Translations under genes and position numbers: made by a program
Notes under the pieces: model-generated
Told to the model about the DNA's origin: nothing
What the model saw: only the letters and a program-made list of their open reading frames with translations
Database searches by the model: none
In this document: positions 13,968 through 29,525 of the stretch, piece by piece
Layout: each line of letters opens with the position of its first letter
How positions within the stretch are numbered: position 1 is the stretch's first letter
Origin: Acidimicrobiia bacterium
GTDB taxonomy: Bacteria > Actinomycetota > Acidimicrobiia > Spongiisociales > ZC4RG35
Length of the DNA: 33,227 bases
NCBI GenBank assembly: GCA_009377435.1
Contig: WHUC01000008.1
Location: 1 to 33,227, forward strand
Direction: 5' to 3'

Positions 13968-13981
13968 GTTTCACGTGAAAC
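13968..13981. promoter_or_regulatory. parS: parS site GTTTCACGTGAAAC
   Basis: Exact 14-bp palindromic core of the bacterial parS consensus, close to parAB. Confidence 0.95.
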
Positions 13982-14028
13982 GGTCCCCCCACGGTAGTCC
14001 GTTCTGCCCCCTGCGAGGCGAGATGGCC

Positions 14029-14083
14029 GAGGTGCCCCCTACCTGCTTCGCAGGAACCTTCCCCCCACTGCGTGGGGGGACAA
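14029..14083 (+). repeat. Two-hairpin dispersed repeat, copy 1
   Basis: GAGGTGCCCCCTACCTGCTTCGCAGGAACCTTCCCCCCACTGCGTGGGGGGACAA; near-identical to the reverse complement of 29451-29506. Confidence 0.9.
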
Positions 14084-14706: not shown

Positions 14707-14720
14707 GTTTCACGTGAAAC
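14707..14720. promoter_or_regulatory. parS: parS site GTTTCACGTGAAAC (within the 18-bp palindrome CGGTTTCACGTGAAACCG)
   Basis: Exact core, upstream of parA. Confidence 0.95.
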
Positions 14721-19791: not shown

Positions 19792-19959
19792 CCAGTGGTC
19801 TGTCGCCGAAATAGCTACGCGGTCTCGCCGGCCCTAGACGCCGCTTGCTGCGTCCTCGTCCTCGAAGCACCGCCCCGGGTGCGCCTTCGTTCTGCGTCCT
19901 TGCCATCGGCGCCGATGGCTCGGCGACACCGCAGCATCAATTCAGCGACAGACCACTGG
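19792..19959. repeat. Structured intergenic segment bounded by a 15-bp perfect inverted repeat
   Basis: CCAGTGGTCTGTCGC 19792-19806 and GCGACAGACCACTGG 19945-19959; internal 18-bp palindrome GCCATCGGCGCCGATGGC 19902-19919; GCACC-GCCCCG-GGTGC hairpin at about 19866-19881. Confidence 0.85.
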
Positions 19960-23109: not shown

Positions 23110-24486
23110 GTGATTCCGGACCGATTCCGCTGGATACTCGACCCAGCCCTCCCCCCGATCCAGCTCGCCGAGCTGTTCAGCGAAGCCCGCCACAGTCTCT
23201 GTCTGGTCGGTGGGTCGGTGCGCGACGCCTTTCTCGGGCGACAGAGTCCCGATTTCGATTTCACCACCGACGCCCGTCCCGGGGAGATCCGAGGGTTGGT
23301 GGCGGGGTGGGCCGACGCCGTGTTCGAGGTCGGCGCCGCCTTCGGAACCATCGGCGCCAGGAAAGGGGATCACGACATCGAGATCACCACTTTTCGCCAG
23401 GAGATCTATCGCGACGATAGCCGCAAGCCGGAGGTCACCTTCTCGGACGATATCGAGACCGATCTCTCCCGGCGCGACTTCACTGTCAACGCCATGGCAT
23501 TCGAGCTCCCCTCCCTCGCTCTGGTCGATCCCTACGGCGGCTCGGCCGATCTGGTGGCGGGCATCCTGAGGACACCGCTTGCTCCGGAGATCTCCTTTGG
23601 TGACGACCCCCTACGGATGATGCGGATGTATCGGTTCCAGGCGCAGTTCGGCTTCACACCCGATGCCGCCGTCGAGACCGCCGCGTCCGAGATGGCCGGT
23701 CGACTCGACATCGTCTCGGCGGAGAGGATCCGCGACGAGCTCAACAAGTTGATCGTTGCACCCCATGTCGACCTGGGATTGGAGGGCCTTGTGAGATCGG
23801 GTCTGGCCGACCACTTCATTCCCGAGCTCCCCGCCCTGGCCATGGAGCAGGACCCGGTTCATCGTCACAAGGACGTGCTTGCCCACACCATCGCCGTGGT
23901 GGCGACCGCCAGCCCCGATCTGACACTCCGGCTCGCCGCCCTGATGCACGACATCGGGAAACCCGCCACGCGGAACATCAATTCCGACGGGGTTGCCTTC
24001 CACCACCACGAGGTCGTTGGCGCCAGGATGACACGGACCAGAATGGCTGCCCTCCAGTACCCGAAACGGCTCATCTCCGATGTCAGCCGGTTGGTGTTCC
24101 TCCATCTCCGACCCCACACCCTCGAGATGGGTTGGACCGACTCGGCGGTGCGACGCTACGTACGTGACGCCGGCCCCCTCCTCGAACGTCTCAACGAGCT
24201 GGTCCGTTGCGACGTGACCACGGCGAACCGACGACGTGCGCAGGTCATCCAGCGTCGTATCGACGAGTTGGAGGCGCGGATCGATCATCTCGCCGAGCAG
24301 GAGGAGCTCGCCGCCATCCGACCTCCTATTGACGGGCACGATGTGATGCGGATCCTCGACATACCCCCCGGTCCCCGTGTCGGGGAGGTGATGGACATGT
24401 TGCTGGAGAAACGTCTCGACGATGGGCCGTACCCGGTCGACGAGGCGGAGCTTCTCGTCCGCGAATGGGGTGAGACCCACCCCTGA
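23110..24486 (+). CDS. pcnA: CCA tRNA nucleotidyltransferase / PcnA-family with HD domain
   Basis: LVGGSVRDAFLGRQSPDFDFTTDARP, RRDFTVNAMAFEL, HHHEVVGARMTRTRM; GTG start. Confidence 0.93.
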   Translation: MIPDRFRWILDPALPPIQLAELFSEARHSLCLVGGSVRDAFLGRQSPDFDFTTDARPGEIRGLVAGWADAVFEVGAAFGTIGARKGDHDIEITTFRQEIYRDDSRKPEVTFSDDIETDLSRRDFTVNAMAFELPSLALVDPYGGSADLVAGILRTPLAPEISFGDDPLRMMRMYRFQAQFGFTPDAAVETAASEMAGRLDIVSAERIRDELNKLIVAPHVDLGLEGLVRSGLADHFIPELPALAMEQDPVHRHKDVLAHTIAVVATASPDLTLRLAALMHDIGKPATRNINSDGVAFHHHEVVGARMTRTRMAALQYPKRLISDVSRLVFLHLRPHTLEMGWTDSAVRRYVRDAGPLLERLNELVRCDVTTANRRRAQVIQRRIDELEARIDHLAEQEELAAIRPPIDGHDVMRILDIPPGPRVGEVMDMLLEKRLDDGPYPVDEAELLVREWGETHP

Positions 24487-24495
24487 TCCGGGGCT

Positions 24496-24515
24496 ATGCG
24501 CATATGCGTATAATG
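24496..24515 (+). promoter_or_regulatory. ArgR-operator-like sequence overlapping a -10 (ATGCGCATATGCGTATAATG), argC promoter
   Basis: 20 bp identical to 27755-27774 upstream of argR; contains the palindrome CGCATATGCG and TATAAT 24509-24514, 6 nt before the argC ATG. Confidence 0.75.
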
Positions 24516-24520
24516 TGGTG

Positions 24521-25540
24521 ATGTTCAACGCAGCCGTGCTCGGTGCCTCCGGTTACGCCGGTGGCGAGATGGTGCGGATCCTCGATCGTCATCCCGGGAT
24601 CGCCGTCAGCCATCTCGGCGCCCACAGTCGCGCCGGGGAGACACTGAGTGCCGTGCAGCCCCACCTCACCGACGGTGGACGAACACTCGGGGACAATGAT
24701 CCCGATCACATCCCCGACGACGTCGATGTCGCCTTTCTCGCCCTGCCGCACGGATCGTCCACCGAAACCGGTATCGCCCTGCGGGATCGGGGGATAACGG
24801 TGGTCGACCTCGGATCAGACTTCCGTCTCGACAGCAACGAGCGGTACCGACAGGCCTACGGGTCGGACCACCCCCGACCCGATCACCTCCCGGAGTGGAG
24901 ATACGGCCTCCCCGAGCTCTTCGATGTGACCGAATCCCGTCAGGTGGCCGCCCCCGGCTGCTATCCGACGGCGGTGCTCCTCGCCATCGCCCCCCTCGCC
25001 GCCGCCGGACTGGTCGATCCGTCGGCCATTGTCGCCGACTGTCTCTCCGGGGTGTCGGGGGCGGGACGCGCCCTCCGTGAGGATCTGGCGTATGGGGCTG
25101 TGGACGAGGGGGTGCGGGCATATGCGGTGACCACCCACCGGCATCGTCCCGAGATCGAGATGGCACTCGAGGCCTACGGGATCGACCATCCCCGTGTCGT
25201 CTTCACCCCCCACCTCGTCCCCATGCTCCGCGGCGAGTTGGCGACGGTCACCGCCCCCACCGAGACGGATGTCTCCACCGCCCGGGATGCCCTCGAGGAG
25301 GTGTACTCGGACAAGGTCTTCGTGTCCGTCATCGATGGACCACCCCAGACCCGTTGGGTCGTCGGTTCCAATCGCACCCTCATCGCGGTGTGGGTGGACG
25401 AGTGGACCGGTCGTCTCATAGTCCAGTCGGCCATCGACAACCTCGTCAAGGGGGCGGCCGGACAGGCGGTGCAGTGCGCCAACCTCATGCTGGGCCTCGA
25501 CGAGACCGCCGGTCTCTCCCTCGACGGGTGGATGCCCTAG
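24521..25540 (+). CDS. argC: N-acetyl-gamma-glutamyl-phosphate reductase
   Basis: MFNAAVLGASGYAGGEMVRILDRHPG, VAAPGCYPTAVLLAIAPL, DNLVKGAAGQAVQCANLMLG. Confidence 0.95.
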   Translation: MFNAAVLGASGYAGGEMVRILDRHPGIAVSHLGAHSRAGETLSAVQPHLTDGGRTLGDNDPDHIPDDVDVAFLALPHGSSTETGIALRDRGITVVDLGSDFRLDSNERYRQAYGSDHPRPDHLPEWRYGLPELFDVTESRQVAAPGCYPTAVLLAIAPLAAAGLVDPSAIVADCLSGVSGAGRALREDLAYGAVDEGVRAYAVTTHRHRPEIEMALEAYGIDHPRVVFTPHLVPMLRGELATVTAPTETDVSTARDALEEVYSDKVFVSVIDGPPQTRWVVGSNRTLIAVWVDEWTGRLIVQSAIDNLVKGAAGQAVQCANLMLGLDETAGLSLDGWMP

Positions 25541-27697: not shown

Positions 27698-27754
27698 TCG
27701 CACGGCAGTTCCGGTTTTCTTGGCCGCGGAACGCGTCAAAACGGATCTGGTTCC

Positions 27755-27774
27755 ATGCGCATATGCGTATAATG
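27755..27774 (+). promoter_or_regulatory. ArgR-operator-like sequence overlapping a -10, argR promoter
   Basis: ATGCGCATATGCGTATAATG, identical to the argC copy; TATAAT 27768-27773, 6 nt before the argR ATG. Confidence 0.75.
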
Positions 27775-27779
27775 ATGCG

Positions 27780-28217
27780 ATGCCTGCAACCGCCGACCGG
27801 AGACGCGCCATCCGGGCCCTCATCGAGGAACGACCCATAACCAGCCAGTCGGAGCTGGTCGAGCTGCTCGACGGTGTAGGGTTCGGTGTCACCCAGGCCA
27901 CGGTGAGTCGCGATCTCTATGCGCTCGGCGCTGGCAAGGACGGTGACCGGTACGTGTTGGGGGAAGCACCGGACCCCGACGCCGTCACCCGTCATCTCCA
28001 CAGGACGGTGGCCGATTGGGCCCGGGCGATAATCCCGTCGGGCAATCTGATCGTCATCCACACCCCACCCGGTGCCGGCCAGGTGGTGGCAGCCGCCGTC
28101 GACGACGCCGAAATAGATGGCGTCGTCGGCTCCGTGGCCGGTGACGACACCGTCCTGGTGGTGGTCGCCGAGGGGCTGGCGGCTTCCGAGGTCATCGACA
28201 GATTGAGAACGGAGTGA
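27780..28217 (+). CDS. argR: Arginine repressor ArgR
   Basis: [51 protein letters not shown]..., [35 protein letters not shown]. Confidence 0.94.
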
Positions 28218-29450: not shown

Positions 29451-29506
29451 TTGTCCCCCCACGGAGTGGGGGGAAGGTTCCTGCGGAGCAGGTAGGGGGG
29501 CACCTC
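29451..29506 (-). repeat. Two-hairpin dispersed repeat, copy 2 (inverted relative to copy 1)
   Basis: TTGTCCCCCCACGGAGTGGGGGGAAGGTTCCTGCGGAGCAGGTAGGGGGGCACCTC. Confidence 0.9.
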
Positions 29507-29525
29507 CGCGAGGCGTGAGGTACTC

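Follow-up and report, generated by a model that had tools for sequence, protein, structure and literature searches.

Two short two-hairpin elements in the window, the whole 33,227-nt stretch of DNA analyzed here, are members of a large dispersed family, probably one of small, REP-like, non-autonomous repeats that an enzyme other than a RAYT would mobilize in trans. The window is contig C39 of the draft genome of an Acidimicrobiia MAG (2.25 Mb, 227 contigs, 88% complete), hereafter the host. Copies of the element are dispersed through this genome, across its order and into a second phylum; their stems change in a compensatory manner, their sites are mostly species-specific, and they lie at gene ends and avoid divergent gaps. 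A sequence-only reading of the window had favored a REP/BIME-like repeat over a cis-riboswitch, and the high copy number, the intergenic placement in both orientations, the occurrence of some inverted dimers, the bias toward convergent gaps and gene ends, the compensatory stems, and the mostly species-specific sites all bear this out. We would classify the elements as REP-like repeats of a two-hairpin variant that lacks a RAYT.

The element in the window and in the host genome

The same reading had described two near-identical two-hairpin elements at 14029-14083 on the plus strand and 29451-29506 on the minus strand, and both coordinates and sequences proved correct. The copies differ by one C in a run and by two substitutions that fall in loops only (TTC/TCC and TGC/TCC), and each lies about 20 nt 5' of a start codon. 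Their orientation relative to the downstream gene is opposite, with copy 1 on the plus and copy 2 on the minus strand while rsmG and argH are both on the plus strand, again as claimed. With up to three mismatches allowed, a 28-mer core occurs at exactly two places in the window and at none in 100 dinucleotide-preserving shuffles, and the pair forms the longest inverted repeat of the window (49 nt, 96% complementary). Copy 1 has the layout G-C5-TA-hairpin 2-N-ACCTT-hairpin 1-ACAA; the features of both copies are collected in Table 1.

Table 1. Features of the two window copies (R1 and R2 are covariance models)
Feature	Position	Strand	Evidence
Element copy 1, A-type module, C-rich strand on +	14034..14083	+	R1 match 14034-14083; R2 match 14033-14083
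Hairpin 2 of copy 1, CCTGC-TTC-GCAGG	14042..14054	+	Consensus DNA/RNA folds; two-sided stem changes
Hairpin 1 of copy 1, TCCCCCCAC-TGC-GTGGGGGGA	14060..14080	+	Exact hairpin pattern; consensus DNA/RNA folds; stem changes
Degenerate dimer-spacer remnant CGAGGCGAGATGGCCGAGGT	14014..14033	+	Aligns with intact spacer upstream of orthologous G028 copy
Element copy 2, A-type module, C-rich strand on -	29451..29501	-	R1 match and R2 match
Hairpin 1 of copy 2, TCCCCCCAC-TCC-GTGGGGGGA on minus strand	29454..29474	-	Exact hairpin pattern
Hairpin 2 of copy 2, CCTGC-TCC-GCAGG on minus strand	29480..29492	-	Sequence of copy and core pattern
Dimer-spacer fragment CGCGGAGGT on minus strand	29502..29510	-	Identical nonamer at other copies

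The sequence-only reading had left room for these being the only two copies genome-wide, which they are not: the host genome contains 22 or more near-full copies of the subtype seen in the window, 43 exact TCCCCCC..GGGGGGA hairpins (C6/G6), and 48 BLAST matches to one composite unit, spread over dozens of contigs. In the module, about 50 nt long, a C-run is followed by a GC hairpin (hp2), the linker (N)ACCTT, and then hp1, a C-run/G-run hairpin ending in ACAA. The first C-run repeats the 5' arm of hp1 and could thus serve as an alternative pairing partner for the G-run of hp1 (terminal repeat TTGCCCCCC..GGGGGGACAA) or, in a dimer, for the other module. The A subtype, to which the window copies belong, has the consensus TTGCCCCCCTA-CCTGC-TTC-GCAGG-N-ACCTT-CCCCCCAC-TNC-GTGGGGGG-ACAAC, and the B subtype is laid out alike but has different stems that are just as perfect (GTGCCCCCCTCGT-CAGCGCC-TCC-GGCGCTG-CCACT-CCCCCCAC-ATCC-GTGGGGGG-AGAAC). 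A-type modules carry GCCCCCCTA 5' of hp2 and ACAA 3' of hp1; CGTC is found only in B-type modules. A third subtype, A', has a longer hp2 and is frequently nested within the hp2 of an A module. We observed this nesting in about a dozen places (L016, L017, L024, and contigs C2, C3, C61, C75, C78, C91, C106, C152, C156, and C217), where the compound appears to have multiplied as one unit.

Modules occur as solos, as nested units, and as inverted dimers, the first two outnumbering the third. The dimers (158-163 bp, about 160 bp) have hp1 outward and a conserved, structured spacer of 40-50 nt, GCGACC...GGTCGCGACCnCCGAGGCC, that also occurs in G028, the same-genus sister genome (WGS record WHTL01, 'Acidimicrobiia bacterium Dino_bin35'). 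The nonamer that adjoins copy 2 recurs elsewhere, in front of other solo copies and, in dimers, behind the B module (e.g., C93:186 and C23). Copy 2 reads as a solo with a spacer fragment and copy 1 as a decaying former dimer.

Several other repeats were also seen. Two further repeated motifs accompany the elements at six host loci (L004, L008, L011, L014, L019, and L023), TGTGCGAGCTTTCTTCCG upstream and CACCGCCCGTCCATCGTGGCGACGGGATCG downstream, and a further repeat, GTTCTGTGCGGATTTTTGACGCGATGGAGCGAGATTTCACGCGCAGAA, stands in tandem copies at L231 and L244 of G028, in the gap orthologous to one on host contig C119. In the window, two exact parS-like sites GTTTCACGTGAAAC (13968-13981 and 14707-14720) bracket copy 1 and rsmG and adjoin parA/parB; in G028 (L189) the block of rsmG and element is inverted between two parS-like sites, and other relatives keep the gene order of the window. 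A 39-nt direct repeat with the palindrome ATGCGCATATGCGTATAAT at 24485-24523 and 27744-27782, just 5' of two arginine-cluster genes, probably represents ArgR operators. A 39-nt inverted repeat with a 90-nt gap (19792-19830 and 19921-19959) is intergenic.

Stem evolution, distribution, and insertion sites

Consensus DNA and RNA folds both give the two hairpins, with energies below those of shuffles. The sequence-only reading had asked whether stem changes are compensatory, and they are: two-sided changes outnumber one-sided ones by 15:0 among 18 host and sister sequences, by 110:6 across the class, and by 178:14 in Dialister. In each of these three sets (host/sister, class, and Dialister) the covariation score is above that of all 500 shuffles and of every slide. 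Alignments A3 and A4, unlike A2, had been fitted to the model, and such fitting favors the structure. G-T wobble pairs showed no excess over other mismatches on either strand. RNA helices normally tolerate G-T pairs; from these modest numbers we take it that the stems are maintained in the DNA, in line with a DNA palindrome.

Covariance model R1, run over 395 genomes of the class with at most about 15 candidates scored per genome so that all copy counts are lower bounds, matched 67 of them and left 328 without a match. Sixty-three of the 67 belong to the order of the host, and the four outside it have one weak match each. The genomes compared are mostly draft assemblies; G057 is closed (a single contig) and has at least 13 copies, and the sister G028 has at least 16, with species-specific hp1 stems. 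In copies from other genera both stems differ, and what is retained is the frame GCCCCCCTACC..GG(N)ACCTTCCCCCC..GGGGGGACAA or the corresponding B-type one. Tandem arrays were seen in G057, where module and spacer repeat in units of about 71 nt (L157:1400-2220), and, made of hp1 halves, in G206 (L150:1280-1640), which suggests local amplification by slippage.

Scanned with the exact pattern, 84,980 species genomes yielded Acidimicrobiia, Dialister, and three matches taken as chance (Levilactobacillus, a Bacteroidaceae MAG, and Desulfovibrio), which lack the frame and score only 11-13 bits. R1 found at least 99 copies in Dialister succinatiphilus, a member of another phylum, and at least 68 in a second Dialister genome, and 117 matches in 400 kb of Dialister regions chosen for their copies. 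Conversely, model R2, which was built from seven Dialister copies only, matches both window copies at the same coordinates (E ∼2e-4) as well as other Acidimicrobiia copies (best E 1.4e-9, in a run on known copies), and gave no match in 110 kb of control DNA. We take the Acidimicrobiia and Dialister modules to be related, by descent, by transfer, or by a shared recognition rule; the similarity rests on a short GC-rich frame, and convergence under a common recognition rule is possible. Dialister dimers are reversed, with hp1 inward where Acidimicrobiia dimers have it outward. Intergenic DNA at L273-L292 of D. succinatiphilus is of unusual length and crowded with two-hairpin modules of several diverse types, many of which form hp1-inward dimers. 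Similar repeats may occur in other gut Firmicutes. Literature searches turned up nothing specific on such a family in Actinobacteria, Dialister, or Faecalibacterium.

Comparison with G028 indicates that most insertion sites are species-specific. The argG-argH gap, 104 nt with copy 2 in the window, is 12 nt and empty in G028, and no copy was noted in the argG-argH gaps read from other genomes of the family. At 13 more host loci with both flanking genes in G028, we found 11 empty sites, one different copy in the other orientation, and one uncertain case, so that 12 of the 14 compared sites are empty in the sister, a between-species difference that could also reflect loss and that was seen with no within-strain movement observed. 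Copy 1 is common to both species: G028 has an A module 21 nt 5' of rsmG, as in the window, and this orthologous copy retains an intact spacer and a B partner (L189:668-763). The sequence upstream of copy 1 aligns with that spacer, so copy 1 is an old, decaying dimer, and at least some copies are therefore old. The hp1 of copy 1 carries the host stem and that of the orthologous copy the G028 stem, a difference that would reflect either conversion within each genome or repeated insertion.

Placement, mobilization, and rival explanations

The 45 clusters counted in the host divide into 14 in convergent, 17 in codirectional, and 2 in divergent gaps, plus 10 at the edges of contigs and 2 that were flagged as lying within a predicted ORF, the one at C61:4405 being a loose match to the pattern; gene calls in the host and in Dialister are approximate and come from a simple codon-usage script. 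The background of host gaps of at least 60 nt is 20 convergent, 67 codirectional, and 29 divergent. In 18 of 31 host cases a stop codon lies no more than 35 nt before the hp1 end; for the opposite end the figure is 4 of 21 (Fisher p = 0.009). In Dialister, 66 clusters with assigned context and 5 at edges include none inside genes, and the gene-end bias is weak. Copies occur in both orientations relative to genes, and the neighboring genes are unrelated. The host thus has what a REP in the broad sense comprises: dispersed extragenic palindromes in both orientations, some of them in inverted dimers, an excess at gene ends and in convergent gaps, and a divergent deficit. A riboswitch or other cis-regulatory RNA was rejected on the grounds of both orientations, unrelated neighbors, and sites mostly different between sisters.

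The gene-end and convergent-gap preference would also be expected of an RNA-level element, that is, of 3'-UTR hairpins that end or protect transcripts as terminators or mRNA stabilizers and are selected at gene ends, and the sub-threshold, full-length likeness of both window copies to whalefall-1 RNA (below) points the same way. We nevertheless consider this explanation unlikely. Neither window copy has a T tract or a terminator-like site that would make it an intrinsic terminator, both precede a start codon, both orientations occur, sites are mostly unconserved between sister species, and wobble pairs are not in excess. A chance pair or an assembly or vector artifact has next to no probability: several copies do lie at contig ends, as is the case for repeats in short-read assemblies, but many diverged copies with compensatory changes are present in dozens of independent genomes, and the phage, plasmid, and viral collections searched contain none.

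Two kinds of transposase deserve consideration as the source of movement. A classical REP/REPIN family moved by the genome's own RAYT (an IS200/IS605-type Y1 transposase), the partner implied by the sequence-only reading, would account for the size, the palindromes, the spacer-conserved inverted dimers, and the context bias, all of which fit REP descriptions (PMC3733652), and the G-strand end GGGGACAA/GGGGAGAA agrees in 7 of 8 positions with GGGGWSAS, a motif of TIRs that flank Y1 genes (PMC3733652). Y1_Tnp (PF01797) is, however, missing from the host genome and from its family (0 of 34 genomes), and of 40 element-bearing genomes in the order just 1 has it, the closed one with at least 13 copies being among the 39 that do not, in searches that detected their controls; nor is there a GTAG tag at the position that defines those REPs. 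This makes a RAYT very improbable, and as far as tested the sequence searches support the REP/BIME-like assignment in the broad sense and refute RAYT mobilization for the Acidimicrobiia genomes searched. The other candidate is a DDE-type MITE, in which the dimer is the element and is moved by an insertion-sequence transposase acting on the terminal inverted repeats GTTSTCCCCCC; the 158-163 bp dimers do end in GTTSTCCCCC...GGGGGASAAC, near-perfect inverted repeats of about 11 bp. Yet target-site duplications were lacking in the 16 solos and 3 dimers tested (one 4-nt match), so that the MITE-like label of the sequence-only reading does not hold in its strict sense. Clustering of 568 predicted proteins from near the copies revealed no recurrent linked mobilizer and no partner transposase adjoining them, the families that recur in many genomes looking like housekeeping ones by eye; in Dialister, only three ORFs are bracketed by copies within 400 nt. 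Dimers are also the rarer form, and we judge the DDE-type MITE improbable.

Mobilization in trans through folded single-stranded DNA, followed by selection, is the most likely course. An enzyme acting in trans would spread the modules and would recognize their folded single-stranded or cruciform DNA; this enzyme would be neither a RAYT nor linked to the copies, and selection would then leave copies at gene ends. Most surviving insertions lie behind stop codons, and they may form bulky 3'-UTR hairpins there incidentally. Dispersal and structure are what the data establish; the enzyme and the single-stranded step are what we infer.

Relation to known repeats and significance

The elements resemble GTAG-tagged REPs, REPINs, and BIMEs with a RAYT (PMC3733652; PMC3116915) in being short GC-rich palindromes present in many intergenic copies, in their spacer-conserved inverted dimers, in their placement near stops and in convergent gaps, and in their species-specific variants. 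GTAG-tagged REPs have one hairpin with a GTAG tag at its base, whereas the elements here have two hairpins and no GTAG, and the Y1/RAYT gene is absent from the genomes of the family. CGTC-tagged REPs (RPE-4, RPE-6, and dRS3; PMC3733652) likewise lack a known dedicated transposase and form mostly inverted dimers, and many B-type modules here carry CGTC 5' of hp2 and CCA 3' of it, resembling the CGTC...CCA definition of that group (PMC3733652). A-type modules, including both window copies, are nevertheless untagged, each module has an extra C-run hairpin, and stem and loop lengths are other. The family does not belong to the RAYT-linked GTAG REPs and is not clearly one of the CGTC REPs. TIRYT terminal repeats with their GGGGWSAS motif (PMC3733652) are alike in the G-run followed by A-S-A and in occurring as singles and dimers in some genomes, but the elements here have no Y1 gene, misfit the last base of the motif, and form a two-hairpin module. 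MITEs (PMC10969869) are likewise small and non-autonomous with terminal inverted repeats, which here are found on the dimer; they differ in the target-site duplication and the parent insertion sequence, neither of which was found here. PMC3733652 names neither Actinobacteria nor Firmicutes, and the present elements occur in Actinomycetota and Bacillota.

Whalefall-1 RNA (RF01762; PMC2864571) has its parts arranged in the order found here, a C-rich hairpin, a short linker, a second hairpin, and a G-rich tail, and aligns over its full length to both window copies. The copies score 11 bits where the gathering score is 37, and with E values of 1.2-2.7 the match is not significant, so that membership was rejected by this test. 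At the window copies all Rfam families stay below their thresholds, and whalefall-1 RNA is not among the Rfam matches listed for the other copies tested. Whalefall-1 RNA might be a distant member of this kind of repeat.

A broader classification is one we put forward tentatively, as somewhat less probable than its opposite: a third REP-like superfamily, defined by a two-hairpin module with repeated C-run/G-run, which the Actinomycetota (Acidimicrobiia) would share with the Bacillota (Dialister) and which a hairpin-recognizing non-RAYT enzyme would spread. REP repeats are a textbook case, and RAYT transposases account for the spread of those that are best known. The present family behaves like REPs in Acidimicrobiia genomes that mostly have no RAYT, and it also occurs in Dialister, a distant gut bacterium; the literature we found describes REP-like families for neither phylum. 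This raises a testable question, namely, which enzyme moves RAYT-less REPs, and the genus pair of host and G028, the closed genome G057, and the densely populated, cultivable D. succinatiphilus are concrete places in which to seek it. The module and its covariance model also let annotators recognize intergenic DNA that is currently unlabeled.
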